Below the pieces are notes generated by a model. It was not told the DNA's origin. It saw only the letters and a program-made list of their open reading frames with translations, and did not search any database. A stretch of 64,000 bases of DNA from Sulfobacillus thermosulfidooxidans. GTDB lineage: Bacteria; Bacillota; Sulfobacillia; Sulfobacillales; Sulfobacillaceae. Positions 15,750 to 49,103 of this stretch are shown one piece after another. The position numbers and the translations under genes are program-made. The stretch is taken from NCBI RefSeq assembly GCF_001280565.1, contig NZ_LGRO01000001.1:2790001-2854000 (forward strand), read 5' to 3'. The stretch's first letter is position 1. Every line of letters starts with the position of its first letter.

Positions 15750-16403
15750 TCATGAATGTTGGGCCAAGGCTCTAGCATATTGCACAATGAGTGCCGTGTA
15801 TGACGTGCTTAAGGACTTATCGGCCGATCCGCCGACTAACCACCGTTCATGACCGTGAGGGCCGATAAAATAGATATAGCTGGCATGGTTGACGCTTTTT
15901 TGTTTGGGTAAGCGCTGGACCCAAATATAATACTTCCGCCACAAAGCTTCTAACTCCGGTGTCGTCCCGGTTACGAAATACCAGTTTTTCATGGTGGTTA
16001 GACCATGTTCTTGATCAAATTTTTGCAAGGACTGGATGGATTCCCAATACGGATCGACGTTGAAACCCACAAATACAACATGATTTGAGAGAGAGCCTAA
16101 TTGCTGATTAGCTGCCACAATTTCTCCTGCTAACACCGGACATACTGTGGTGCAGGTGGGATCCATCGGAGTAAGGACCACAACTTTTCCGCGAAATTGG
16201 CTTAAACGAATTATTTGTCCGTTTTGATCGGGCAGCGCGAAATTGGGAGCTATTTTTCCTTGTAATGGCGTTAAGATCCCCGCGTTAGCCGCTTTTTTAG
16301 CCTTCTGCGAGGGTTTTAGCGACGTGAGTTGTACATTGGCGTGTGTGGCAGGACGAGGGGGTGTCCTTCTCATTCCCCACCACAATCCTGCCGAGAGCGC
16401 CAA
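15750..16403 (-). CDS. SCO1/SenC-family copper chaperone
   Basis: The protein has a thioredoxin fold with the SCO metal-binding motif CxxxC (DPTCTTVCPVL, about residue 80) and the third ligand His in VNHASYIYFIGPHG about 100 residues later. SCO proteins carry copper to the CuA site of cytochrome oxidase and sit outside the membrane. The N-terminus is odd: the open frame starts at a TTG (16403) inside what looks like a signal-anchor helix, and an in-frame TAA lies only eight codons upstream, right before a coherent hydrophobic stretch. A frame error or a rare start nearby is possible. Confidence 0.85.
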   Translation of the reverse strand: MALSAGLWWGMRRTPPRPATHANVQLTSLKPSQKAKKAANAGILTPLQGKIAPNFALPDQNGQIIRLSQFRGKVVVLTPMDPTCTTVCPVLAGEIVAANQQLGSLSNHVVFVGFNVDPYWESIQSLQKFDQEHGLTTMKNWYFVTGTTPELEALWRKYYIWVQRLPKQKSVNHASYIYFIGPHGHERWLVGGSADKSLSTSYTALIVQYARALAQHS

Positions 16404-16816
16404 GAGCGATCCCGCAACAGCTATCCATTACGTGAGTTTTTTATTCGCTGTGTTGTGATTCGCACCATCTGTCGGTGTTTGCATTCTCTTCACGTCCCTA
16501 AAGTCGTTGTGATGCTATCCAGGATCAACCCGGTCTTTGACCGGGTTTTCTCTCATAGCCTGCTTGACATAGATTCCGTCCACAATTCTTCTCTAAGTCT
16601 ATTGTACCCAAACCGTTTCGGTAAGGCAAAAATGAAGAAATTCTCTGAGGTAAAAAGAGGAATTTTGTCGAATTAGAGAGAAAGCAAACTTTCGGGGATG
16701 TTCTAGGATATTGCAGACACAGAGAAAACAAACAATCCCAAGATTTTTAGGAAGAACAACGCATTTTAAGATATCTTGATGTTCTTCTCGCAAGGGAATC
16801 GGAAGGAGGGATGATG
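16404..16816. other. Divergent intergenic region ahead of the flagellar block
   Basis: About 400 bases separate the SCO gene from the first flagellar gene. Apart from the hairpin at 16527-16547 I see no gene; short frames on both strands have no ribosome binding site. AT-rich sequence from 16590 to 16780 probably holds the flagellar promoter, but I could not identify a sigma-D (TAAA-N15-GCCGATAT) box with confidence. Confidence 0.4.
16527..16553 (+). terminator. Strong hairpin with short U-tract, possible attenuator
   Basis: AACCCGGTC (16527-16535) pairs perfectly with GACCGGGTT (16539-16547) around a TTT loop, followed by TTCTCTC. The T-rich side is on the plus strand, yet no plus-strand gene ends nearby. 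It may terminate a leader or small RNA ahead of the flagellar operon. Confidence 0.5.
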
Positions 16817-17275
16817 ATGAGTGATGAACCCTTATCACAAGAAGAAATTGACAAGTTGCTTCAGGCTGTCTTGTCTAAGGAAAATGAAAAATCGCCGGAA
16901 ACAGAAGAGAAGGAATCCGTGCCGGAAGAGCACCTTGCCACGGAACCAACAGTTCCTGAAACACCTGTGGCACCTACTCCTGCTCAAGGAACGCATGACA
17001 GCTTCGATACAGTAAAGGTGCCTGCCCAAATTCTTGAGAAATGGGCACCACTGGGTTCACTGCAATTACGATTTACGGCCGAAATTGGGACAGCCCCATT
17101 AAAGGTTGGGGATATTATGCAGATTGGCATTGGTTCCCGGGTACCGCTTAAGACACGGTGGATGGAGCCTTTAGTGTTAAAACTGAATGGCAAAACGGTC
17201 GGGTATGGACGGGTTGTTCTGGTTGGCAATAAGTTTGGCGTTCAGGTGACGAAGTGGGGACGCCTGACTCACTAA
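16817..17275 (+). CDS. FliN/FliY-like C-ring protein with CheY-binding-type N-terminus
   Basis: The 152-residue protein begins MSDEPLSQEEIDKLL, matching the CheY-P-binding peptide at the N-terminus of FliM and FliY (LSQ-x-EID-x-LL). A ~55-residue acidic, Pro-rich linker follows, then a C-terminal SpoA/FliN domain (about residues 70-150, with GDIMQIG, G-x-x-V-G-x-G-R-V-V-L-V and FGVQVTKW). It lacks the CheC-type phosphatase domain of Bacillus FliY. ATG 16817 is preferred over 16811 and 16814 by spacing from GGAGG. It is the first gene of the flagellar block and likely a switch-complex component. Confidence 0.82.
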   Translation: MSDEPLSQEEIDKLLQAVLSKENEKSPETEEKESVPEEHLATEPTVPETPVAPTPAQGTHDSFDTVKVPAQILEKWAPLGSLQLRFTAEIGTAPLKVGDIMQIGIGSRVPLKTRWMEPLVLKLNGKTVGYGRVVLVGNKFGVQVTKWGRLTH

Positions 17276-17289
17276 AAGGCGGAGATTTG

Positions 17290-18462
17290 ATGGACGAGTA
17301 TCAATGGACGGTTATTGTCAATACTTGGGCTTATGACGAGACCCAAATCGAAGAGACAAGTGCTCCCTTTATTGGGTGGGCGAATCGGATTGTGTTCGTG
17401 GAATTAGGGCCATGGCATCGTCAACTTGACCTTTCGCTTTGGAGTGAAGGAGTTGAAATTGTCCAGGACTGGCCAGGATCTTTTCGTTTGCAATATGACC
17501 AGATTTTACGGCGAGAACAAGATTTAGACACGGACATGATTCTTTTCCTGGAAGGAAATGAAATCATTCGCCGTATGGATCTTCATGATTTGAATCATTA
17601 CACCAGTAAACATGTGGCGGCTTACCGGCTGCCCGTCCTGCGTTCAGGAAGCGATGAATCAAAAAAAGAACTTCGCATATTAAGACTCTCGCGTTGGCAT
17701 GGGTTTCACGGGGTTTATAAAGCCGATCCTTATCCCGAACTCACCGCTTTCAGTGAACCTATCCTTGAGGGCGAAATACCTATTGTGAGAACAGGCGAGG
17801 GTATAAAGCATGGTCCTAGGCTTGAAGGGATTATGCGTGAAGCTAAAGATATCGATTTGTTGGTAAGAGCCCGGTGGCTTCTTGACACACGGGAATTCCA
17901 GACCGCTTTACGATTACTGAAAAAGGACGGGACGAAAAGTCTTTATAACAATGAAAAAAGCCTTCTTGTACGTACAATGATGGCCGAGGCACTTATGGGC
18001 TTAAAGAAACCGCAGGAGGCATTACAAGTACTGGCGTCTTTGATGGCCCGTTTTCCGAATGCCGACAGATCTTATCTCATGGGACGCGTGCTCTATGCAT
18101 TGGACCGGTTTGACGAAGCGTCGACCTATTTTTATCAAGCCGGCACAGGAGCTTACGGGTTACGAGAATCCCAGGAACCTGGTGCTGATGGGTACCGGGC
18201 CTTGTTATGGGCGGCCCAATCACTGCATCTTGCTAAACGGCCCAAAGATAGTTTTATGATGGTGACTCGTCTGTTAGAAGATTTCCCATTTTTTCGTGAG
18301 GGCTGGAAATTTTTCTTTGCCTTACTCGGCGACGCCAAGCCGGAGGAATTATATGAGTTAATGACGCAAATTGTTTCCCCGCAAACGGTCCATGAAGTGT
18401 TTGAACGGATGGGAGAGACCGAAGGGCCAGAGCAAGCGTTTCAACAATGGCTGTTTCGGTGA
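17290..18462 (+). CDS. Glycosyltransferase-like/TPR protein
   Basis: The protein has 390 residues from the ATG at 17290 (site GGCGGAGA). Residues 1-180 resemble a GT2-type GT-A domain (VIVNTWAYDETQIE...), but where an active enzyme has DxD the sequence reads LFLEGNEII, so catalysis is doubtful. Residues 195-390 are TPR-like helical repeats (FQTALRLLK, PQEALQVLASLM, FDEASTYFYQAGTGAY). It lies 14 bases after the FliN-like gene in the flagellar operon. A role in flagellar glycosylation or as a scaffold is inferred from place. Confidence 0.7.
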   Translation: MDEYQWTVIVNTWAYDETQIEETSAPFIGWANRIVFVELGPWHRQLDLSLWSEGVEIVQDWPGSFRLQYDQILRREQDLDTDMILFLEGNEIIRRMDLHDLNHYTSKHVAAYRLPVLRSGSDESKKELRILRLSRWHGFHGVYKADPYPELTAFSEPILEGEIPIVRTGEGIKHGPRLEGIMREAKDIDLLVRARWLLDTREFQTALRLLKKDGTKSLYNNEKSLLVRTMMAEALMGLKKPQEALQVLASLMARFPNADRSYLMGRVLYALDRFDEASTYFYQAGTGAYGLRESQEPGADGYRALLWAAQSLHLAKRPKDSFMMVTRLLEDFPFFREGWKFFFALLGDAKPEELYELMTQIVSPQTVHEVFERMGETEGPEQAFQQWLFR

Positions 18463-18559
18463 AAACATGTCTCGCTCGTAAATTGTTGTCAGCAAAAGAA
18501 GGAATTGGAAAGAGACTGTCGAAACGTGCATGACAAAGAGAATGGAAGGGGGGGTGACA

Positions 18560-19135
18560 TTGGTTAATAAAACGCTGGCCTTTTTCCAAAATGGTCAAGT
18601 CGTTCCGTTGACCACACCCATTTTTCAAGGGCCTAAGACGAGGCGCCGCGGACGAAGACGTGAACAAGACCGTTATTTTCCCAGTGGTGAATTAATTCCA
18701 ACCCGTGAAGAATTGATTCAATATATTCTTAACCATGTCCTCTACCAAATCGATCCGGTGTTAGGGGAACCCATTTTTTGCAAGCACATTATCAAACCTA
18801 ACCGGGAACGGAATCGGGAAAGTATGTATCACGTTGTCCTCGGACCGCCATCATGGACCGGGGTCTGGGAAGTTATTGGCAATCGCCGGATGTTTGACAT
18901 TCATGCCGAATATGTCCCCGAAGAACGAACATGGCTTCCCCAGATTACGGTGTCGCCGGGAAATTTTATCGGGGTCGATAATTTGAATGGTATTGAGCTG
19001 GATCCCATTTGTTTACGGCGCGAGATTATTCGCCGGAAATTTGTAACGGCCGACGAATATGACTGGTTTGCCAGTCCCTATGCTTCGATACGGCGCATGG
19101 CGATCGCAAAGGCTCAACGCGGTATTTGGATGTAA
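18560..19135 (+). CDS. Unknown protein in the flagellar operon
   Basis: I do not recognise this ~191-residue protein. A start near the TTG at 18560 is favoured by the GGAAGGGGGG site six or so bases before it; GTG 18554 and ATG 18542 are alternatives. It has a strongly basic stretch early on (KTRRRGRRREQDR), a central block containing C-K-H and R-x-R-x-R-E, and a Trp-rich C-terminal domain. No signal peptide or membrane segment. It lies between a glycosyltransferase-like gene and motA, 41 bases ahead of the latter, so may act in motility. Confidence 0.55.
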   Translation: MVNKTLAFFQNGQVVPLTTPIFQGPKTRRRGRRREQDRYFPSGELIPTREELIQYILNHVLYQIDPVLGEPIFCKHIIKPNRERNRESMYHVVLGPPSWTGVWEVIGNRRMFDIHAEYVPEERTWLPQITVSPGNFIGVDNLNGIELDPICLRREIIRRKFVTADEYDWFASPYASIRRMAIAKAQRGIWM

Positions 19136-31950: not shown

Positions 31951-32286
31951 ATGAATCCCGTAGCGATTTTTAAAGCGCTCGGCCATGACATGCGATATCG
32001 ATTATTTTGTGATCTGTTTGGGCCGTCTACCTCGACATGTGAGGGACAAGACGAAGTGCCAGCGTGCTGTGTCACGGATTTGATGGAGAAATATCCATTG
32101 TCTCAATCCACAATTTCGCACCACTTAAAGATTTTGGTTGAGGCGGAATTAGTGGAGCAAGAAACTTATGGTACCTATCATTACTATCATGTCAACGTGA
32201 ACATGTGGAATGCTTTTCGCGATTATCTCAGCACTCTCAATTTGAATTGTGGCAATCCGGCGTGTCCACCCCAGGGACGCATCTAA
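31951..32286 (+). CDS. ArsR/SmtB-family metalloregulator
   Basis: The 111-residue protein has the ArsR winged helix: an early KALGHDMRYRLFCDLFG helix, then LSQSTISHHLKILVEAELVEQ as the recognition segment. Five or more Cys could sense metal or sulfur: one at STCEGQ, a C-C pair in ACCVTD before the recognition helix (an ArsR CxC/CC-like site), and two at the C-terminus (NCGNPAC). What it senses is unknown. GGAGGG stands before the ATG; operator 1 overlaps its promoter. Confidence 0.88.
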   Translation: MNPVAIFKALGHDMRYRLFCDLFGPSTSTCEGQDEVPACCVTDLMEKYPLSQSTISHHLKILVEAELVEQETYGTYHYYHVNVNMWNAFRDYLSTLNLNCGNPACPPQGRI

Positions 32287-32301
32287 TTTTTTGGATGATA
32301 A

Positions 32302-32317
32302 ATCGATAAATATCGAT
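32302..32317 (+). promoter_or_regulatory. ArsR-type operator 2 (ATCGAT-N4-ATCGAT)
   Basis: ATCGATAAATATCGAT repeats the half-sites and spacing of operator 1, immediately ahead of the Cys-containing protein gene (its AAGGAG site begins three bases on). Confidence 0.75.
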
Positions 32318-32332
32318 ATAAGGAGAATGATC

Positions 32333-32623
32333 ATGAGTCAGATCAAACAAGCCGGTAAGGTCATCGAAGAAGGTGGCGAAGTTCAGATTGTTTTCCCCCA
32401 TGCCTTTTCGCTCAACGTCATCCAAGAGGCGGTGGAAGCGTGTCAAGACGGGCAGTGTAGCTGTCATGATTCCGAAGCTTGGGACAAGATCAAGGATATT
32501 GAAGTTCGAGATCATAATGGAGAAGTGCGTATTCATGTGAAAGGCGAGAATTTATCGCGCGACATCGTTGAGGCCTGTTTCAACGATTGCGATCAAGAAG
32601 TGCTTGCCCCAGAAAACGATTAA
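32333..32623 (+). CDS. Small Cys-rich protein under ArsR-type control
   Basis: I do not recognise this 96-residue acidic protein. It begins MSQIKQAGKVIEEGGE (ATG 32333, AAGGAG; ATG 32327 is too close to the site) and has six Cys: ACQDGQCSCHD near residue 45 and EACFNDCDQE near the C-terminus. It could bind metal or thiol ligands. It lies 46 bases after the ArsR gene with its own copy of the operator, so it is the regulator's most likely target. It is followed by a hairpin at 32645-32690. Confidence 0.6.
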   Translation: MSQIKQAGKVIEEGGEVQIVFPHAFSLNVIQEAVEACQDGQCSCHDSEAWDKIKDIEVRDHNGEVRIHVKGENLSRDIVEACFNDCDQEVLAPEND

Positions 32624-32644
32624 AGAGAAGCTCCAATACCACAA

Positions 32645-32690
32645 AGCGAAGCCTCGCTGAGATGATGACAGGATCTGAGGAGGCTCCGCT
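32645..32690. terminator. Imperfect hairpin between convergent genes
   Basis: AGCG-A-AGCCTC...(32645-32658) pairs with GAGGCT-C-CGCT (ending 32690) with small bulges. No T-run follows on either strand, so efficiency as a terminator is doubtful; it sits between the convergent Cys-rich and ABC genes. Confidence 0.45.
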
Positions 32691-32735
32691 AGTAAGGATC
32701 TAGAAGTTTGCTATCGGCGCGTTTTGTCCCTGTTA

Positions 32736-34046
32736 TTATTGATAGGTGCCGTCTTTTTGTGCGAGAGATACGGCTTGTTGATAAGCACTATGCATGGCCT
32801 GGACCGGCGTTTCCTTATTGAGCAACACCGCGATAATGGCATTGAGGAGAACCTCGTGGGAGAATTGATCCCACCAAGCTACTTTGGGTTCGGCAATCGC
32901 GGTATTGAGGACACTTAGTGACACTTGTTGGGCAGGATGGGTACTCAAAAACTGGCTAGCTTGGGCTGCCACATCACTGCGGACGGGAAGATAGCCTTCA
33001 CTGTGTTCCATCCAATACGTCTGTCCGGCTTTCGATGTGAGATATTTGATAAAGGCAAATCCCGCTTGTTGCTGGGCAGGAGTCGCTTTAGAAAACATAC
33101 CCAAATATCCGCCGAAAAGAGATGTTGCCTGTTTCACGTTGTGAGGTAACGGGGCTTCCGCGATGGTAAATTTGTTGCCTACGGCTTGTTGCAGATAGGG
33201 ATAAAATCCGGTTGTGCCGATTAAGATGAAACTGGTTTCGTTCGCAAAATCGGTTTGAGATGCATATCCATGGGTTAATATTGCCGAACCATTTTTCACC
33301 ATATTACTCCACAGCGTTAAGGCCTTGACGGCAGGGCCGTTGGAAGCGAATGCGGCTGGATTGGGCATGCCGTTTGAGCCTACGAAATTGCCTCCGGCCT
33401 GATCAAAGAAGGCGAGCCAGGGATAAGTATGCACCAGGGTGATGGCAAAGGCTTGCTTACCCGGTCCCGACAATTTGCTGGCATCTTGGGCAAATTGTGT
33501 CCAAGTTGTGGGTGGTGTCGTAATGCCCGCATTGGTGAATGCATTTTTGTTGTAATACATAATGGCAGCGCCAAGATTAAAGGGCATCAAATACTGATCG
33601 CCATTGGGCCACTTTCCCGGTTTGAGCATATTGGGATAAAACGAAGCCAAAGAGAAACCATGGGGACCAGAAATGAAGGGATTGAGATTGACCAAGCTGC
33701 CAGTTTGGATGAAACCGGTCGCCCAGGGGGGATTCATTTGGGATAATGTCGGAGGATCACCAGCCACCACTGCGGCTAATAATTTGGGTTCTAATGCGGC
33801 ATCATTGGGTACGACCACATCCTTGACGGTAATATTGGGATGAAGTTTTTCAAATTGCTGAATTTCACCCGATAGGGCCGTTTCATAAGGTCCCGTCATT
33901 TCATTCCAAAACGTTATGGTGACAGGCCCTTTGCTAGAGGAAGAGGGTTCCGAAGGTGTTGCCGTTTGGTTCCCACAACCCGCTAAAAATGAAGATAAAA
34001 GCACTGCGCTGATAAGTGGAGCCGCAATATGTGATTTCTTAATCAT
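32736..34046 (-). CDS. ABC transporter sugar-binding lipoprotein
   Basis: The protein has 436 residues from the ATG at 34046 behind GGAGGAAG. A lipoprotein signal peptide is clear: charged start MIKKSH, hydrophobic core, and lipobox LAGC with Cys ~26, followed by a Ser/Thr linker. The rest resembles family-1 extracellular solute-binding proteins (VTITFWNEMTGPYE, A-G-D-P-P, W-A-T-G-F). It delivers a sugar or polyol to the two permeases encoded upstream. No ATPase is encoded in the operon, so a shared MsmK/UgpC-type ATPase is assumed. Confidence 0.9.
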   Translation of the reverse strand: MIKKSHIAAPLISAVLLSSFLAGCGNQTATPSEPSSSSKGPVTITFWNEMTGPYETALSGEIQQFEKLHPNITVKDVVVPNDAALEPKLLAAVVAGDPPTLSQMNPPWATGFIQTGSLVNLNPFISGPHGFSLASFYPNMLKPGKWPNGDQYLMPFNLGAAIMYYNKNAFTNAGITTPPTTWTQFAQDASKLSGPGKQAFAITLVHTYPWLAFFDQAGGNFVGSNGMPNPAAFASNGPAVKALTLWSNMVKNGSAILTHGYASQTDFANETSFILIGTTGFYPYLQQAVGNKFTIAEAPLPHNVKQATSLFGGYLGMFSKATPAQQQAGFAFIKYLTSKAGQTYWMEHSEGYLPVRSDVAAQASQFLSTHPAQQVSLSVLNTAIAEPKVAWWDQFSHEVLLNAIIAVLLNKETPVQAMHSAYQQAVSLAQKDGTYQ

Positions 34047-34146
34047 CAATGACTTCCTCCTTATTCGTGTTTTTCTCGCTTTTTGATTTCTCGTTCTTTG
34101 TTTGCTTATCATCCGATAACGTGCATGAACGGATACTGATTGAAAA

Positions 34147-34980
34147 TTAGCCTTTGATACCGCTGCGGCTAACTGACTCCACAATTTGTCTTTGGGCAAT
34201 CATGTAAAGAATCAGCACGGGCACGGTGGTGATGGCCGCAGCAGCGGACAAAACCGTCCAGTCCGTACCGTTAGCGGTGGATAAAAAGTTGGCCAGACCC
34301 ACTTGGATGGGTTGAACTTGTGGGCCATTGGTGACAATCAGAGGCCATAAAAATGCGTTCCAACTCAGGAGAAACAAGTAAATGCTGACGGTGGCAATGG
34401 CCGGCATCAAATTGGGGACGACGACATGCCATAGATAACCCCAATCTGTAATGCCATCGATACGTGCGGCATCACGCAGCTCTTTAGGAAGAGAGCGCAT
34501 AAATTGCACCAGCATAAAGACCGCGAATCCATTGGCGGCAAATGGCACAATTTGTGCCGTATAGGTATTGAGCCAGCCCAAATCCTTGACGATTAAGTAA
34601 TCCGGCACGATGATGGAATAAAATGGTATCATCATTGTCGACAAAATCACCACCAAGAGATATTGGGTTAGGCGGCTGGACAAAAAGACAATACCGTATG
34701 CCGCCAAGAGTGAGGTCAATAAGGCTAACACAGTGGTCACGATGCCGATGCCGAGAGAGTTGAGAAGAAATCGCAACCATGGGGCTAAATGCCATGCCGC
34801 AATATAATTACTCAACACACCTTGGGGGATCAACGCTCCAGGAAAGCTATAGGCCCGCGCTGATGTTTCTAATGATGTGGCAAAGATCCACCATATCGGA
34901 AAGATGGTGATTACCGCACAGACGCTTAAAAAGAGATAAATGAGAAGTCGTGCGCCTTTTTTCACGGTATTAGCCTCCAT
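34147..34980 (-). CDS. Sugar ABC transporter permease (MalG-like)
   Basis: The 277-residue protein has six helices and the binding-protein-dependent transport signature EAA (here ELRDAARIDGITDWGYLWHVVVPNLMPAI, residues ~185-215, with D-A-A replaced in the usual position). MalG-like permeases end in a C-terminal tail with a short IVE-S-x-x-R motif, as here. It overlaps the upstream permease gene by 11 bases and lies 100 bases before the binding protein gene. Confidence 0.9.
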   Translation of the reverse strand: MEANTVKKGARLLIYLFLSVCAVITIFPIWWIFATSLETSARAYSFPGALIPQGVLSNYIAAWHLAPWLRFLLNSLGIGIVTTVLALLTSLLAAYGIVFLSSRLTQYLLVVILSTMMIPFYSIIVPDYLIVKDLGWLNTYTAQIVPFAANGFAVFMLVQFMRSLPKELRDAARIDGITDWGYLWHVVVPNLMPAIATVSIYLFLLSWNAFLWPLIVTNGPQVQPIQVGLANFLSTANGTDWTVLSAAAAITTVPVLILYMIAQRQIVESVSRSGIKG

Positions 34981-35853
34981 AATAAATGGACTTGCGTGAT
35001 ACCCAAAACTGCAGTCCGGTCAGGCCTAAAATGAGCACGAAGAATATCACAGCCTGTGAAGACGCCTCACCAAAGTGAAAATAATTAAACGCCGTTTCGT
35101 AAATCAGATAAGTCAGGGTCGTCGTGCCATTTAAGGGTCCTCCCCGTGTTAACGCATAGATCTGGGTGAACGTTTGAAAAGCATTAATGGTGTTAATGAC
35201 AATGACAAAGAGTGTTGTAGGCGACAATAAAGGCCAGGTGATATGCCAAAACTGGGCCCAGCCACTGGCACCGTCAACTTGAGCTGCTTCAAGCAATTCC
35301 CTGGGGATATTGGTCAAACCGGCTAAGAAGAGTAGCATGGTAAAGCCAAAACTAAACCAGATGGTGTAGATAATGACACTAATCAGCGCCAAAGTGGGTT
35401 CATTAACCCAGCCAATGTTATTAGGAAGACCAATGAGACCGAAAATTCGGTCGATTATTCCAACATTAGGCTGATACATCCACAACCAAACCGTCGAGGT
35501 GGCAACAACGGGCATGACATAAGGCAGAAAGAACAATGCGCGAAATAGCCCGACCGCGCGAATGCCTTGATATAACAACACCGCAAAAATAGTGACACAG
35601 CACTCCCGAGAATCACAACGCCTATCGCGAAGAGAAAGGTCACTTTCAGCGATTGCCAAAAAAGTCCCGTCTCAAATAATTGTTGGTACTGCGTGAGCCC
35701 GACGAAATGGGGATGGGTGCCATATGTGAAATGGAAAAAGCTATATCCAATGACGAGAAATAGCGGAATAATCCAAAACACGGTGAATACACTGAGTGAC
35801 GGTACCAGATACCAAAATCCTAGACGAGGCATATAAGACGCCTTGGCATTCAC
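34970..35853 (-). pseudogene. Sugar ABC transporter permease (MalF-like), frameshifted
   Basis: Two overlapping frames encode one permease of about 294 residues. The N-terminal frame (from 35853) reads MNAKASYMPRLGFWYLVPSL... and runs through three helices up to GSAVSLF. The C-terminal frame resumes at AVLLYQGIRAVGLFRALFFL and holds the EAA-type loop (LLEAAQVDGASGWAQFWHI). The break is at an A5 run (35585-35589; T5 in the coding strand); one extra T would restore the frame. A sequencing error, an inactive gene or slippage are all possible. It overlaps the GntR gene by four bases. Confidence 0.82.
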
Positions 35854-36590
35854 GGTTCTGACCTCTCTTTGAATTCTGTGTGTCGGGTGATGGTGTATGA
35901 AATGAAACCTTCCCGGTGATATCCCACACTATAGATGGCAGGGATTTGCGATTGTGTATAGGCCACCTGTTGGAGAAAGAGTACCGCTTCATGAGGCTCA
36001 ATGCCTAGTGCTTGAGCTGCTTCCTCACTACTGCGTTTGATCGAAATACGGGTTGTGGCATAGGCGATGACAATCCCTAACTGTGCTAATGCGGGCATCA
36101 TTTTGTCTGAAAAACCTGATAAATCGACGACGGTTGACCCGATGTGTGTCGGTAAATAATCGATTAAGAAAACAGCCGGTTCGCCGTCCGCGAGGACGGT
36201 GCGAGTGACCCGGTAACCGGATGTGGGTTGAGACAATGACAAGGCTTCTAAGACATGTTTGGGTAAATCTAAGGGTTGAATATGAATGTCAATGACTGAG
36301 GGTTCATATCCATTTTCGCGCACAATATCAGCTACGCTGTTCAGGATTTGCAATGAAGCATTCATAGTTCTGGGAGGACGACTCGCAAATGTGCCGACTC
36401 CATGCTTTCGAATCACCAAACCTTCTTGCTCGAGGGCACTGAGAGCAGAACGAATGGTGGGGCGACTCATGCCGAGTTGCTTGGCTAGTTGATCTTCCGA
36501 GGGCAATCGCTCCCCCGGCGCTGTCGCCATCAAGATTTCCTCAATGCTTTCCCGGGCGAGGCGTTGGCGGGGAATGAACCGACTGGTCAC
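35850..36590 (-). CDS. GntR-family regulator with UTRA domain
   Basis: The 246-residue protein from GTG 36590 (site GGGAGGA) has an N-terminal winged helix of the GntR/HutC type (ESIEEILMATAPGERLPSEDQLAKQ, MSRPTIRSALSALEQEGLV) and a C-terminal UTRA effector domain (V-x-D-I-H-I...FLIDYLPTH). UTRA domains bind a sugar or related ligand. It is the first gene of the ABC operon: its last bases overlap the permease start by ATGA. The palindrome at 36610-36626, upstream of the start, is its probable operator. Confidence 0.92.
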   Translation of the reverse strand: MTSRFIPRQRLARESIEEILMATAPGERLPSEDQLAKQLGMSRPTIRSALSALEQEGLVIRKHGVGTFASRPPRTMNASLQILNSVADIVRENGYEPSVIDIHIQPLDLPKHVLEALSLSQPTSGYRVTRTVLADGEPAVFLIDYLPTHIGSTVVDLSGFSDKMMPALAQLGIVIAYATTRISIKRSSEEAAQALGIEPHEAVLFLQQVAYTQSQIPAIYSVGYHREGFISYTITRHTEFKERSEP

Positions 36591-36609
36591 AATTCTTCCT
36601 CCCAAAGGT

Positions 36610-40815: not shown

Positions 40816-42852
40816 ATGGCCAAAAGTCGAGCGTTGTTAAAAGAAGCCTTCGTGCCGGTCGCTGCGGTCATTGCCATCTTAATGCTGGTGATTCCCATCC
40901 CTCCCTGGGCTCTTGATTTCTTTCTCATTATCAATATTGCTCTATCGATTGCAGTACTCGTGTCGACGATGTTTATTAATGAAGTGTTGGATTTGTCCGT
41001 GTTTCCTTCTCTTTTGCTCTTGACCACGTTATTCCGGTTGGCCCTTGAGGTGACGGCGACTCGCCTCATATTACTGTCAGGCGATCCCGGCTCGGTCATT
41101 CAGACCTTTGGCCGGCTCGTTGTGGGGAATAACGTGGTGGTCGGTATCATTATTTTCATCATTCTTATCGTCATCCAATTCATGGTCATTACTCGAGGGG
41201 CCGAAAGAGTGAGTGAAGTCGCTGCCCGGTTTACACTCGATGCCATGCCGGGGAAACAAATGGCCGTGGATGCGGAACTGAATGCCGGTTTAATTCGTGA
41301 GCAAGAGGCTAAAAAACGGCGTCAGGATATTGAGCGAGAGGCAGATTTTTACGGGGCCATGGATGGTGCCTCGAAATTTGTGCGCGGGGATGCCATCGCT
41401 GGAATCATCATCGTCTTTATCAATATTATCGGAGGCCTGATTATTGGTCTTTCGGAAAGACATTTAGCTATTGCTACCGCACTTAACACTTATACGATAT
41501 TAACGATTGGGGAAGGTATTACCACCCAAATTCCTGCGCTCTTATTATCCACCGCGACAGGAATTCTTGTCACCCGTTCGGGATCACAAGGGACCCTCAA
41601 CAAAGATGTCTTAAATCAGCTGACGCAATTGCCGCGGGTCTTATACATTGTCGCCATTGTGCTGTTTTTAATGGCCGCCTTAGGACTGCCGCCGTTTGTT
41701 CCGCTTTTGTTAGGATCTATAGCGTTTTATGGCGGATGGCAAATCGAACAGCGGCAAAAAGCACAAAAAGCTCAAGAAATTGCGCGGCAAAATCAGCAAA
41801 ATCAAGAATTGGCCAAGAAACCGGAAGCGGTCATGCAATTAATTGGCTTTGATGTGATTGAGCTCGAGGTCGGTGTGGGTTTGGTGCCCTTAGTCGGCGG
41901 CCAAGCCGGTCAAGACTTAAGAGACCGGATTATGGCGCTGAGACGGCAAATCACGGCCGAACTCGGCCTGGTTGTGCCCCCTGTCAGGGTCCGCGACAGT
42001 TTAGAACTCACCTTGAATCAATACCGCATCCGCATTCGGGGGGCGAGTGTCGCCACCTCTGAAGTCCGGCCCGATCGGTTTTTGGCAATGGGAGGCCAGG
42101 AACTTGGCATCGATGGCGCGATTCTCACCAAGGATCCGGTTTTTGGGCTGCCCGCCTATTGGATTCGTGAGGACGCCCGCGACCGGGCGGAATTGGCTGG
42201 AGCCACCGTCATTGATGCGGGATCGATTTTGGTGACACATTTAGCCGAAGTGATTCGTCACCACGCGCATGAAATTCTTGACCGTGAAGAAGTCAAGAAA
42301 CTGGTGGATTACGTTAAATTAACGCATCCTGTCGTTGTTTCCGAACTGATTCCTGATCTCCTGACACTGGGTGAAGTTGAACGTGTCTTAGCCAATTTAC
42401 TGAGGGAGAAAGTGTCCATTCGCGATATGCCGACCATTTTAGAAGCCTTGGCGGATGGAGCGAGGACGACACGGGATATCGATCTCTTAACCGAACAGGT
42501 AAGGCAGCAGCTATCCCGTCATATTACCGAACCGTTAATTAAGCAAGGATTTTTGCATGCGGTGGTGTTATCCCCGGCAATTGAGCAAGAAATGAAAGCG
42601 GCCTTAGAGCAAACCGACCGGGGGACTTATTTGAACCTCGATCCCACGATTGCCCAAAAAGTCGTAAATGCTCTCAATACCCAGCTTTCGAAGTTGCCGC
42701 AAGGCGTTCCCAAAGTGGTGATTTCATCACCCTATGTGCGCTTGTACTTTAAGCGTTTGACTGAACGGCTCTTTAAGGACTTGACCGTTTTGTCCTATGC
42801 CGAAATTCAAAGTGATGTCGGAATTAAGACAATGGGAGTGGTAGAAATATGA
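40816..42852 (+). CDS. flhA: Flagellar export protein FlhA
   Basis: The 678-residue protein has about eight N-terminal helices, the FHIPEP-type cytoplasmic signature region (R-x-A-E-x-A-A-R-F-T-L-D-A-M-P-G-K-Q near residue 150), and a ~330-residue C-terminal export domain (from about residue 350, LIGFDVIELEVGVGLVPL). It forms the nonameric export platform. GGAGGCG precedes the ATG. Its stop overlaps flhF by four bases. Confidence 0.96.
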   Translation: MAKSRALLKEAFVPVAAVIAILMLVIPIPPWALDFFLIINIALSIAVLVSTMFINEVLDLSVFPSLLLLTTLFRLALEVTATRLILLSGDPGSVIQTFGRLVVGNNVVVGIIIFIILIVIQFMVITRGAERVSEVAARFTLDAMPGKQMAVDAELNAGLIREQEAKKRRQDIEREADFYGAMDGASKFVRGDAIAGIIIVFINIIGGLIIGLSERHLAIATALNTYTILTIGEGITTQIPALLLSTATGILVTRSGSQGTLNKDVLNQLTQLPRVLYIVAIVLFLMAALGLPPFVPLLLGSIAFYGGWQIEQRQKAQKAQEIARQNQQNQELAKKPEAVMQLIGFDVIELEVGVGLVPLVGGQAGQDLRDRIMALRRQITAELGLVVPPVRVRDSLELTLNQYRIRIRGASVATSEVRPDRFLAMGGQELGIDGAILTKDPVFGLPAYWIREDARDRAELAGATVIDAGSILVTHLAEVIRHHAHEILDREEVKKLVDYVKLTHPVVVSELIPDLLTLGEVERVLANLLREKVSIRDMPTILEALADGARTTRDIDLLTEQVRQQLSRHITEPLIKQGFLHAVVLSPAIEQEMKAALEQTDRGTYLNLDPTIAQKVVNALNTQLSKLPQGVPKVVISSPYVRLYFKRLTERLFKDLTVLSYAEIQSDVGIKTMGVVEI

Positions 42853-43955
42853 TTGTGAAACGCTTTACGGGCCAAACTGTCGAAGAAGCCCTCATCCGGG
42901 CAAAATGGGAATTAGGCGATGAGGCCGTGCTATTATCTTCAGGTCCGGCCAAAGATCGCTGGTGGAAATTTTGGGAACGGGGTTATCAGGTGTTAGCAGC
43001 CACTGATTATCCTCTGCCCTCGTCAACAACGGCACCTGATCGCGTGCGGGACACCGAGAGTTCCCGGCCGGAAATTGCTGTAACCAGCACATCGTCCGAA
43101 CCAGAAATTCGTGATGAGCGGTTAGAAGAAATAATGGCTTTATTAACACAAATGGATAAAAAAATATCCCAGGTTAGTACGCCCCGTAAAGGCAAAGAAC
43201 ATCCGCTTTTTACGCATTTGTTATCGCTGGAAGTGGATGAGAAATGGGCGAGAGAATTAACGGGATTCCTGCCTAAGGGCGAAAAAGATGCGCAGTTAAG
43301 CAAGTTACTAGAGATTTTGAAAGAGCGTATTGTGCTCGCTCCTCCTCTAACTGGGGATACCCCACATATTGTCGTGTTTATTGGCCCGACAGGAGCCGGA
43401 AAAACCACGACGATTGCTAAGCTTGCTAGCAAATTGGGTTTAGAAGAGGGCAAGAGCGTTCTTCTGATCACGACAGACACCTTTCGGGTTGCAGCCTCCG
43501 AACAACTCCAGACCTTCGGCAGCATTTTAGATGTTCCCGTGGTGATTGCCAAACGACCTCAAGATGTTCCCAAGTTTATTCAAGATTATCCGGCCGATGT
43601 GGTCTTGATAGACACGCCCGGAAATAGCATTAGTGAACCGATGGGGATACGCTCGGGACTCAGTGTGGTGAAACATGCGAAAGCGACGGAAGTTCTCTTG
43701 TGCATGCCCGCAACCTATTCTCGTTCATTGTTTGTGGATACGGCGAAAAAACTGTCCCAAGATATTCCCGTCTCATTATGCTTAACCAAGGTCGATGAGG
43801 CCTTAGTTCCCGGTCCCATCCTTTCCGCTTTATTAGAGTTGAAAAAACCGGTGATGTATGTCACCACCGGTCAACAAGTTCCTCATGACATTGAAAGTGC
43901 CGAAGAAGGTCAGTTAATGTCGTGGTTGGTTAAAGGGGGCGCTTATCATGGCTGA
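42849..43955 (+). CDS. flhF: Flagellar biogenesis GTPase FlhF
   Basis: The 368-residue SRP-type GTPase has an N-terminal basic B domain (MIVKRFTGQTVEEAL, variable to ~residue 130), an N domain and the G domain with GPTGAGKTTTIAKLASKLG (P-loop), TTDTFRVAASEQL, D-T-P-G-N-S and L-T-K-V-D-E. It sets flagellar number or position together with FlhG. ATGA overlap with flhA and an 8-base overlap with flhG. Confidence 0.95.
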   Translation: MIVKRFTGQTVEEALIRAKWELGDEAVLLSSGPAKDRWWKFWERGYQVLAATDYPLPSSTTAPDRVRDTESSRPEIAVTSTSSEPEIRDERLEEIMALLTQMDKKISQVSTPRKGKEHPLFTHLLSLEVDEKWARELTGFLPKGEKDAQLSKLLEILKERIVLAPPLTGDTPHIVVFIGPTGAGKTTTIAKLASKLGLEEGKSVLLITTDTFRVAASEQLQTFGSILDVPVVIAKRPQDVPKFIQDYPADVVLIDTPGNSISEPMGIRSGLSVVKHAKATEVLLCMPATYSRSLFVDTAKKLSQDIPVSLCLTKVDEALVPGPILSALLELKKPVMYVTTGQQVPHDIESAEEGQLMSWLVKGGAYHG

Positions 43956-44856
43956 GCAGGCCGACCAGCTGCGCGCCTGGATAAAACGCCAAAGCGCCAA
44001 AGTGCAAGACGAGGTCTTCGAGCGGCGGAGTCAAGGTGGTCGTATTGTGGCTGTGACATCGGGAAAAGGAGGTGTCGGAAAAAGTCAACTGACCTTGAAT
44101 TTGGCTATCGCCTTACAACAAAGAGGACAACGGGTCGTGATATTAGATGCCGATTTGGGCCTTGCCAATATCAATATTCTCTTGGGCTATGAACCCAGCT
44201 TTACTTTATGGGATGTGGTGCAAAAACGCGTGCATATGAAAGATGTGCTCCAACAAGGGCCGCTAGGACTGCGCATTATTCCTGGAGCTTCAGGCATAAG
44301 TCAATTGGCCTCGCTCGATGAGGTGGAAATCTCCGACATCATAGAAGGATTTCAGGACCTGGAGGGCGAATGTGATTGGTTATTGGTGGACACAGGGGCT
44401 GGCATTGCTGCTAATGTGCTGTCATTTGTGCTAGCTGCGGATGAAGCATTAGTGGTAACCAACCCTGAACCTCCAGCATTGGCCGATGCCTATGGCTTGA
44501 TTAAATCGATTTGGGAGTCACAAGGACATGTTCGCTTGCAACTTGTGATGAACCGCAGCAAGTCCTTAAAACACGGAGAAGAAATGGGAATGCGTGTGAT
44601 TAACTTGGCGGAACGCATGTTAAATCAACCCGTGGGATTCTTTGGCGTTGTCCGGGAAGATATGCATGCTCAACAAGCTGTGTCCCGCCAGCAGCCCTTG
44701 ATTCTCTTGTACCCCAATTCTATGGCTGCGCAAGATATTGGAGATTTAGCCGATCAGATGATTTACCGCATTAAGCCGCCCAAACGGGGACGCTGGGGGC
44801 ACTTTGTCCACCGCATGAGCTCGTTGTGGTCTTCCTTGCCGAAGGAATTCGGATAA
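43948..44856 (+). CDS. flhG: FlhG/YlxH-type MinD-like ATPase
   Basis: The 302-residue ParA/MinD ATPase has the deviant Walker A SGKGGVGKSQLTLNLA, D-A-D-L-G-L-A-N-I-N-I, and L-L-V-D-T-G-A-G-I. A DQLR-like N-terminal helix (AEQADQLRAWIKRQ) matches the FlhF-activating segment. It controls flagellar number by stimulating FlhF. The C-terminal tail is basic and possibly membrane-binding. Confidence 0.94.
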   Translation: MAEQADQLRAWIKRQSAKVQDEVFERRSQGGRIVAVTSGKGGVGKSQLTLNLAIALQQRGQRVVILDADLGLANINILLGYEPSFTLWDVVQKRVHMKDVLQQGPLGLRIIPGASGISQLASLDEVEISDIIEGFQDLEGECDWLLVDTGAGIAANVLSFVLAADEALVVTNPEPPALADAYGLIKSIWESQGHVRLQLVMNRSKSLKHGEEMGMRVINLAERMLNQPVGFFGVVREDMHAQQAVSRQQPLILLYPNSMAAQDIGDLADQMIYRIKPPKRGRWGHFVHRMSSLWSSLPKEFG

Positions 44857-47706: not shown

Positions 47707-47748
47707 ATGAATAAAATCATGGGGAGAACCTGCAATAGAAGGGGATGA
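47707..47748 (+). CDS. 13-codon ORF overlapping the fliM start
   Basis: ATG 47707 (site AGGAGG eight or so bases before) opens a 13-residue frame, MNKIMGRTCNRRG, ending TGA at 47746-47748, which overlaps the fliM ATG at 47745 as ATGA. The strong site and the overlap suggest a leader ORF that couples translation to fliM, or the mark of a degraded longer gene. The peptide itself is unrecognised. Confidence 0.45.
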   Translation: MNKIMGRTCNRRG

Positions 47749-48659
47749 GATGGATGGGACTGGTCAAAGATCTCAAAGAGGTACGTCCCTACGATTTTCA
47801 AAGGCCACACCAGCTAAGCCGCCTACAACTTGACGCCATTACTTTAATGATGGAATCGTACCTGCGGATGGCTTCGAACTTCCTCTCCACCTATTTGAGG
47901 ACACCCGTGCAGATCCAACATATCAGTACTGAACAAATGCCTTATGAGCAGTATGTCGAAGGGGTTACTATTCCAAGCGTGCTGGCCTTATTTACTATCA
48001 ATCAATCGGGTTCTGGACTCCTCGAGAGTTCACCGGAAGTGACTTTAGCGATTATTGATCGTGCTTTAGGAGGCCCGGGTTTCGGTCATTTTCCCACTCG
48101 GGAATTAACCGAGATTGAACAGACGATTTACCGGCGGATTATGGAACGCTTGTTGAGCTTGCTGGGTCAAAGTTGGTCGTCTTTGATGCCGTTTGAAGCC
48201 CGTATCGATACCATTGAATATAATCCGGCGTTTACCCAAATATCCTCGGAAGGGGATTTAGTGGTCGTGCAGCAACAACAAATTTCTATTGACAGCCACA
48301 AAGGGATTTTGTCATGGGTGTGGCCATATCCGGCCATTGAGCCTTTTGCTCTCATGCTGGGACGCCATGCCTTGGGACGTGAAGACGATCAAGATGTCAA
48401 GCCGAAAACCCAAGAGATGCTAAAGCTCTTGAGCCGCAGTGCGGTTCGCGCCGATGTCGTTTTGGGCCGCACCACGATTTCTTTGGGCGAATTTCGCCAG
48501 TTGAAACCGGGTGATGTTATCATTTTAAAAAATCGTTATGACAAGCCGTTAACCTTGTCTTTGGCCAATCAAGAAAAATTCCATGTTGTGGCGGGTAAAG
48601 TGGGAGGCCATTTAGCTGTCCGAGTGACAGGACGCGTTAATCCAAATGACCAAGAATGA
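47745..48659 (+). CDS. fliM: Flagellar motor switch protein FliM (short N-terminus)
   Basis: The 304-residue protein has the FliM core (VRPYDFQRPHQLSRLQLDAI, residues 12-31, GSGLLESSPEVTLAIIDRALGG, the SpoA C-terminal domain with VVLGRTTISLGEFRQLKPGDVI). It lacks the ~30 residues before this core that in other FliM hold the LSQ-x-EID-x-LL CheY-binding peptide. The first two in-frame ATGs are at 47745 and 47754; the second has better spacing from GGGG. It forms the C-ring wall with FliG and FliN. Confidence 0.9.
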   Translation: MRWMGLVKDLKEVRPYDFQRPHQLSRLQLDAITLMMESYLRMASNFLSTYLRTPVQIQHISTEQMPYEQYVEGVTIPSVLALFTINQSGSGLLESSPEVTLAIIDRALGGPGFGHFPTRELTEIEQTIYRRIMERLLSLLGQSWSSLMPFEARIDTIEYNPAFTQISSEGDLVVVQQQQISIDSHKGILSWVWPYPAIEPFALMLGRHALGREDDQDVKPKTQEMLKLLSRSAVRADVVLGRTTISLGEFRQLKPGDVIILKNRYDKPLTLSLANQEKFHVVAGKVGGHLAVRVTGRVNPNDQE

Positions 48660-48701: not shown

Positions 48702-49103
48702 ATGAGTGAGAATAAGGGACGTTTAACCAAAGAAGAATTGCAGGCATTAACCGAAGGATTGGACGATCATTCAGGGCTTGAGGCCCGCCCGGTAGAATTT
48801 GCGGATTTAGATGTGCCTCCGAAACCGGACCGGCCTGTTTCGCCCGTGGATTTCCTTTGGGATGTTCCTATGGATGTTGAGGTGGTCTTAGGCAGTACCG
48901 ACTTATCCGTACAAGACGTCTTGGAAATTGGTCCGGGATCGGTCATTGAGTTAGAGCGGGCTTACGGGGAACCGGTTGATGTGTATTTAAATGGCCGCAT
49001 TGTCGCCAAGGGTGAAGTGGTCATTATCGGCGAACAATTTGGTGTGAAGATTACGGAGATTTTGGCTTCTTTTCCTGGGGACGAAGAGGAGTCTTCGGAT
49101 TAG
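48702..49103 (+). CDS. fliN: Flagellar motor switch protein FliN
   Basis: The 133-residue protein starts MSENKGRLTKEELQALTEG and ends in a SpoA domain (FLWDVPMDVEVVLGSTDLSVQDVLEIGPGSVIELERAYGEPVDVYLNG, blocks from residue ~49). FliN forms the base of the C ring. The N-terminal peptide distantly recalls EIDxLL but is not a clear CheY-binding motif. The terminal 53 bases overlap csrA tail-to-tail. Confidence 0.9.
   Translation: MSENKGRLTKEELQALTEGLDDHSGLEARPVEFADLDVPPKPDRPVSPVDFLWDVPMDVEVVLGSTDLSVQDVLEIGPGSVIELERAYGEPVDVYLNGRIVAKGEVVIIGEQFGVKITEILASFPGDEEESSD

Follow-up and report, generated by a model that had tools for sequence, protein, structure and literature searches.

In the textbook flagellar switch, the tether that captures phosphorylated CheY (CheY-P) belongs to FliM, and docking and force transmission are therefore inseparable. 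For CheY of Salmonella and Escherichia coli, the reported binding sites are the N-terminus of FliM, the FliM middle domain and a patch on FliN (PMC11087270). By one description, the FliM peptide acts as a tether, priming CheY for additional sites on the basal ring (PMC7355467). Bacillus subtilis FliY is a switch component that hydrolyses CheY-P (Szurmant et al. 2003, 2004). The CheY-binding motif has been named as a feature of the FliY of Bacillus rather than that of Helicobacter pylori (PMC8809382), FliN homologs that lack CheC are already known, and it has been stated that having a CheC domain does not mark FliY proteins out as one family (PMC6946799).

The window examined here, a stretch of 64,000 nucleotides from the genome of Sulfobacillus thermosulfidooxidans (3.83 Mb, three contigs), includes a gene at 16817–17275 on the forward (+) strand that encodes a 152 aa SpoA protein, a probable FliN paralog and candidate CheY dock, and which we have named fliYl. 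The ORF extends from 16811 to 17275 (+) with in-frame ATGs at 16811, 16814 and 16817, and the last of these is the best start because a ribosome-binding site (AAGGAGG, 16803–16809, +) lies 7 nt 5′ of it and close orthologs start with MSDEPLSQ or MSDQPLSQ. The LSQEEIDKLL peptide (16832–16861, +), a canonical putative CheY-binding motif of the FliM/FliY type, is followed by a linker (16862–17056, +) that is acidic and Pro-rich as judged by inspection and largely predicted to be disordered, and by a SpoA (FliMN_C) domain (17057–17257, +), which is the sole Pfam match (PF01052, E 2.7e-15, residues 83–149). The Pfam search detected neither a CheC domain nor the FliM middle domain (PF02154) in the protein; the peptide was assessed by motif, no Pfam profile being reported for the FliM N-terminal peptide. 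The gene coordinates, the peptide, linker and SpoA domain, and the absence of CheC had all been put forward in the first-pass annotation, and all proved correct. At the DNA level, the pattern LSQx[ED]IDxL has one match in the whole genome, at fliYl, and none for the reversed-pattern control, and six-frame translation also finds it once in the window. An AlphaFold2 monomer model is weak (mean pLDDT 64, pTM 0.39) and supports only a SpoA-like C-terminus, with SpoA structures of FliN and FliM as the top Foldseek matches (E values of 1e-3 to 1e-2), and a helix at residues 10–24, in which the peptide lies; the linker is modelled as disordered, with pLDDT <50 across most of residues 31–67. A scan of 16380–16850 for sigma-70-type promoters found none on the + strand and one site, at chance level, on the − strand; no sigma-D pattern match adjoins fliYl.

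Three SpoA proteins are encoded in this genome, namely FliN, a single FliM and the fliYl product. The fliM gene (47745–48659, +; Pfam FliM 8.9e-39) lies 30.5 kb downstream of fliYl, and its product starts MRWMGLVKDLKEVRPYDFQRP, with approximately 17 residues preceding YDFQRP. As the open frame has only 306 codons, FliM has neither the N-terminal peptide nor an in-frame upstream extension that could supply it. A mis-called fliM start was rejected for the same reason and because the peptide pattern matches the genome only at fliYl, and a second, peptide-bearing FliM elsewhere was rejected since only this FliM is encoded. Just 5′ of fliM, in a different frame, there is an ORF of 13 codons (47707–47748; MNKIMGRTCNRRG), which is preceded by a good ribosome-binding site and shows no similarity to the peptide. 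FliN (48702–49103, +; Pfam FliMN_C 2.6e-25) has a degenerate N-terminal motif, RLTKEELQALT, at about 48720–48752. The genes for FlhF and FlhG, identified by sequence and gene order, are also in the window (42849–44856, +), and one CheC-family protein is encoded approximately 290 kb from fliYl, at the cheA locus.

We consider it likely, from sequence comparison, that the fliYl product is a flagellar switch subunit given over to chemotaxis input, that is, a stand-alone CheY-P dock in the C-ring. At the C-ring base, its SpoA domain would join the ring formed by the SpoA domains of FliN and FliM, while the LSQEEIDKLL helix, on its flexible acidic linker, would capture CheY-P. Since FliM lacks the peptide, CheY-P would be held by the fliYl protein and would then act on FliM/FliN, with a presumed effect on rotation. 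Placed on a FliN-type subunit, the tether would do the same job as on FliM. The CheC phosphatase domain of Bacillus FliY is missing from the fliYl protein, and a separate CheC protein is encoded among the che genes. CheY-P binding, incorporation into the ring and an influence on rotation are all predicted properties. Counting against a CheY dock of this kind, the FliY of Thermotoga maritima is reported (PMC7355467) not to favour activated CheY over the inactive form.

The acid-loving family was examined using 34 genomes of the Sulfobacillus group (designated by G numbers), with named contigs including Sulfobacillus benefaciens, S. thermotolerans and S. acidophilus. SpoA proteins were found in 31 of the 34, mostly three in each, and FliM, FliN and a third SpoA protein could be read in most. 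A CheC domain was absent from the third SpoA protein of every family member read, and hence fliYl is not truncated; a truncated FliY was rejected on this ground. Among the family FliM proteins read, those of G003 and G004 alone carry the peptide or a remnant of it, and the rest lack it. Among 15 peptide-bearing third proteins, P7, S9, Q10, I13, D14 and L16 are invariant, whereas the linker is not alignable.

In both SpoA-domain trees, which rest on 79 columns and in which G003, G004 and G023 were too divergent to be placed, the third proteins of the family form one clade with 100/100 support, lying apart from the sampled CheC-bearing FliY and from the short SpoA proteins with a peptide that other families encode. 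The nearest neighbour in one tree is the family's own FliN, with weak support (82/66) and a long branch. The fliYl protein resembles FliN in its small size and single C-terminal SpoA domain, but it differs in carrying the canonical EIDxLL peptide, in scoring 48.2 bits against the NCBIfam FliN equivalog TIGR02480 (cut-off 84.05), in being encoded away from fliM and in coexisting with a true FliN. With the FliY of Bacillus and Thermotoga it shares an N-terminal LSQ[ED]EIDxLL peptide and a C-terminal SpoA domain, but those proteins include CheC, and here the protein coexists with FliN and FliM has no peptide of its own. The FliY/FliN pairs of Campylobacter, Helicobacter and Leptospira are similar in that two FliN-type proteins accompany FliM, but the FliY of these pairs has retained CheC, in a catalytically inactive form. 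Though the first-pass annotation treated the protein as the equivalent of Bacillus FliY minus CheC, the position of the clade, the lack of CheC throughout the family and the separate CheC protein in the che operon do not support this, and "FliN paralog" appears to fit better.

Other peptide-bearing SpoA proteins without CheC occur elsewhere in the class or phylum (G041, G431, G400, G401, G267, G242 and G129), a Pfam scan of the first three finding no CheC domain, and those placed in the trees fall outside the Sulfobacillus-family clade. FliM also lacks the peptide in G041 and G431, as in the window's genome, whereas G401, G267, G242 and G129 retain it on FliM as well. A peptide-less FliM with a peptide-bearing partner therefore recurs in other families of the class, and the arrangement is not unique. 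An extra dedicated subunit bearing the only canonical peptide, together with linkage to a che operon and association with CheA, appears to be new, as no published description was found in the literature searched.

As had been noted earlier from the letters alone, fliYl is a separate gene that leads a flagellar block. In the window's genus it heads a motility block, with the order glycosyltransferase/TPR–orf201–motA–motB–flgBC–fliE–fliF in the window. The genes between fliYl and motA (17254–19135) encode a glycosyltransferase/TPR-like protein and a 201 aa protein without a Pfam match, and this pair recurs in the window's genus and in G007 and G030. Several genera have fliYl as the last gene of the chemotaxis operon, just after cheR, to which it is directly 3′ in eight genomes (G011, G012, G020, G024, G025, G027, G029 and G031); the order in G011 is cheW-cheA-cheY-HD-cheC-cheB-cheR-fliYl. 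It is divergent from a che cluster in G001 and G002. The genes 5′ of it in G007 and G008 encode a response regulator and a protein of HD type, and motility genes follow in G007. A peptide-bearing SpoA protein from another family of the class (G400) also adjoins che genes and is outside the clade, and the linkage may thus have arisen more than once. Two further features of these operons were seen. Many include a gene for a protein with a partial HD domain between the che genes (L075:9877–10887 and L076:12275–13291; Pfam HD_5, scanned in L075), and in the window's genome and G018 a 167 aa protein with no Pfam match (L075:13778–14281) is encoded 3′ of cheR, the place where other genera carry the FliN paralog.

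The presence of a CheC-family protein in the same operon as fliYl in several genera, and the hydrolysis of CheY-P by B. subtilis FliY (Szurmant et al. 2003, 2004), would suit a protein that acts as a CheY-P sink or helps the free CheC phosphatase to dock, and so tunes the decay of the signal rather than feeding the switch, with the role of Bacillus FliY split over two proteins. We regard this as improbable, as the catalytic domain is absent from the fliYl protein and, with FliM lacking the peptide, the motor would then be left with no known high-affinity dock for CheY-P.

To compare the fate of the peptide with that of the chemotaxis system, each of the 34 family genomes was searched for CheA and CheW; the Pfam H-kinase_dim model is too weak a marker for CheA in this family, and the CheA protein together with CheW was used instead. 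A peptide was counted as intact whether carried by the third SpoA protein or by FliM, with the cut-off between intact and degenerate (both I and D of EID kept) chosen after the sequences had been seen. Both traits could be scored on a FliM+FliN tree for 24 genomes. Of these, 16 are CheA-positive, and the peptide is intact in every one, being carried by the third protein in 15 and by FliM in G003; in seven of the eight CheA-less genomes it is degenerate or lost, though the SpoA domain stays. Remnants are LSGPEADALL on FliM in G004, LTQEQVDELL in G007 and G008 and LSPDETNTLL in G026, and the peptide is lost in G006, G009 and G010. In the two genomes with FliM as the carrier, CheA-positive G003 has LSQSEIDALL and CheA-less G004 the remnant. 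The exception is G030, with neither CheA nor CheW in the assembly, where LSQEDIDALI is kept on one of two copies but is gone from the one in the motility block (L061/L105). Unscored genomes were G001 (gene cut by a contig end), G022 (third protein not found), those without a readable FliM, G023 (CheA present and no peptide on the SpoA proteins read, in a genome that is 59 % complete) and G029, which has an intact peptide on a contig that ends inside cheB, so that CheA may be in the gap.

The association has a Fisher p of 2e-5 over the 24 genomes, a value that ignores kinship. On the tree each trait changes four times, and three independent pairs lie on starred branches; random pairings yield about 2.7 concordant and 0 discordant pairs (sign test p 0.25), the number of independent pairs being too few for a kinship-aware test to reach significance. 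That relatives without chemotaxis have usually lost the peptide as well suggests that it is the entry point of the steering signal into the motor. The proposal in the first-pass annotation that signal input may come through this subunit thus gains good comparative support from the confinement of the peptide to fliYl in the genome, the che-operon placement in several relatives and the decay in most CheA-less relatives.

The CheA-less genomes keep the flagellar genes read, and the SpoA domain persists in G006, G009 and G010, where both the peptide and CheA are missing, which indicates that the fliYl protein has a role beyond chemotaxis. It could accordingly be taken for a structural C-ring or export subunit whose peptide is an ancestral leftover without a present role; this is hard to credit, given that the members with a peptide all share its core residues although their linkers cannot be aligned, and that the peptide decays along with CheA in several lineages. 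A different ligand for the peptide deserves somewhat more weight but is also unlikely, namely FlhG as the main partner in assembly or positioning of the C-ring, with CheY secondary. FlhG binds the FliY N-terminus (the first 36 residues) in Bacillus/Geobacillus and the FliM N-terminus in monotrichous bacteria (PMC12327844, PMC12826062), and flhF-flhG share the window with fliYl. However, flhF and flhG are present in CheA-less G006–G010, G026 and G030, and in G006, G007, G008, G009, G010 and G026 the peptide has been lost or degraded together with CheA, which argues against FlhG as its sole ligand. The motif on FliN, kept in those genomes, is a better candidate for FlhG.

The family's FliN starts with RLTxEE[IL]xAL or near variants in all members read except G003, G004 and G023, and this degenerate motif is kept both with and without CheA. 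Although this is no proof, the comparison suggests a motif on FliN that serves FlhG and a peptide on the third protein that serves CheY. A more tentative extension, possible but on balance doubtful, is that an ancestral FliN/FliY-type N-terminal peptide bound both CheY-P and FlhG and was divided over two paralogs, with RLTxEE[IL]xAL retained on FliN for FlhG-driven assembly and EIDxLL on the extra copy for CheY-P. If so, expression of a che-operon gene would determine, independently of FliM, how many signal inputs each motor has. The degenerate FliN motif might also bind CheY.

With the fliYl protein as the probable CheY-P dock, the Sulfobacillus family has its tether on a separate gene, often inside the chemotaxis operon, and several CheA-less relatives form a natural knock-out series. 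Such a system permits a test of whether the tether need only bring CheY to the ring, regardless of which subunit carries it, and also bears on whether the CheY and FlhG roles of the peptide are separable.

Two other loci merit mention. Between flgE and fliO, the run of flagellar genes in the window is broken by an ArsR-type regulator and a sugar ABC transporter cluster with a GntR-type regulator (31951–36605), identified by sequence, with a scan confined to the ArsR protein. The flagellar locus of G003 and G004 (L243/L242) is very divergent, with FlhF and FlhG not found in the stretches read; its FliM is about 22 % identical to that of the window, and the locus was possibly acquired horizontally.
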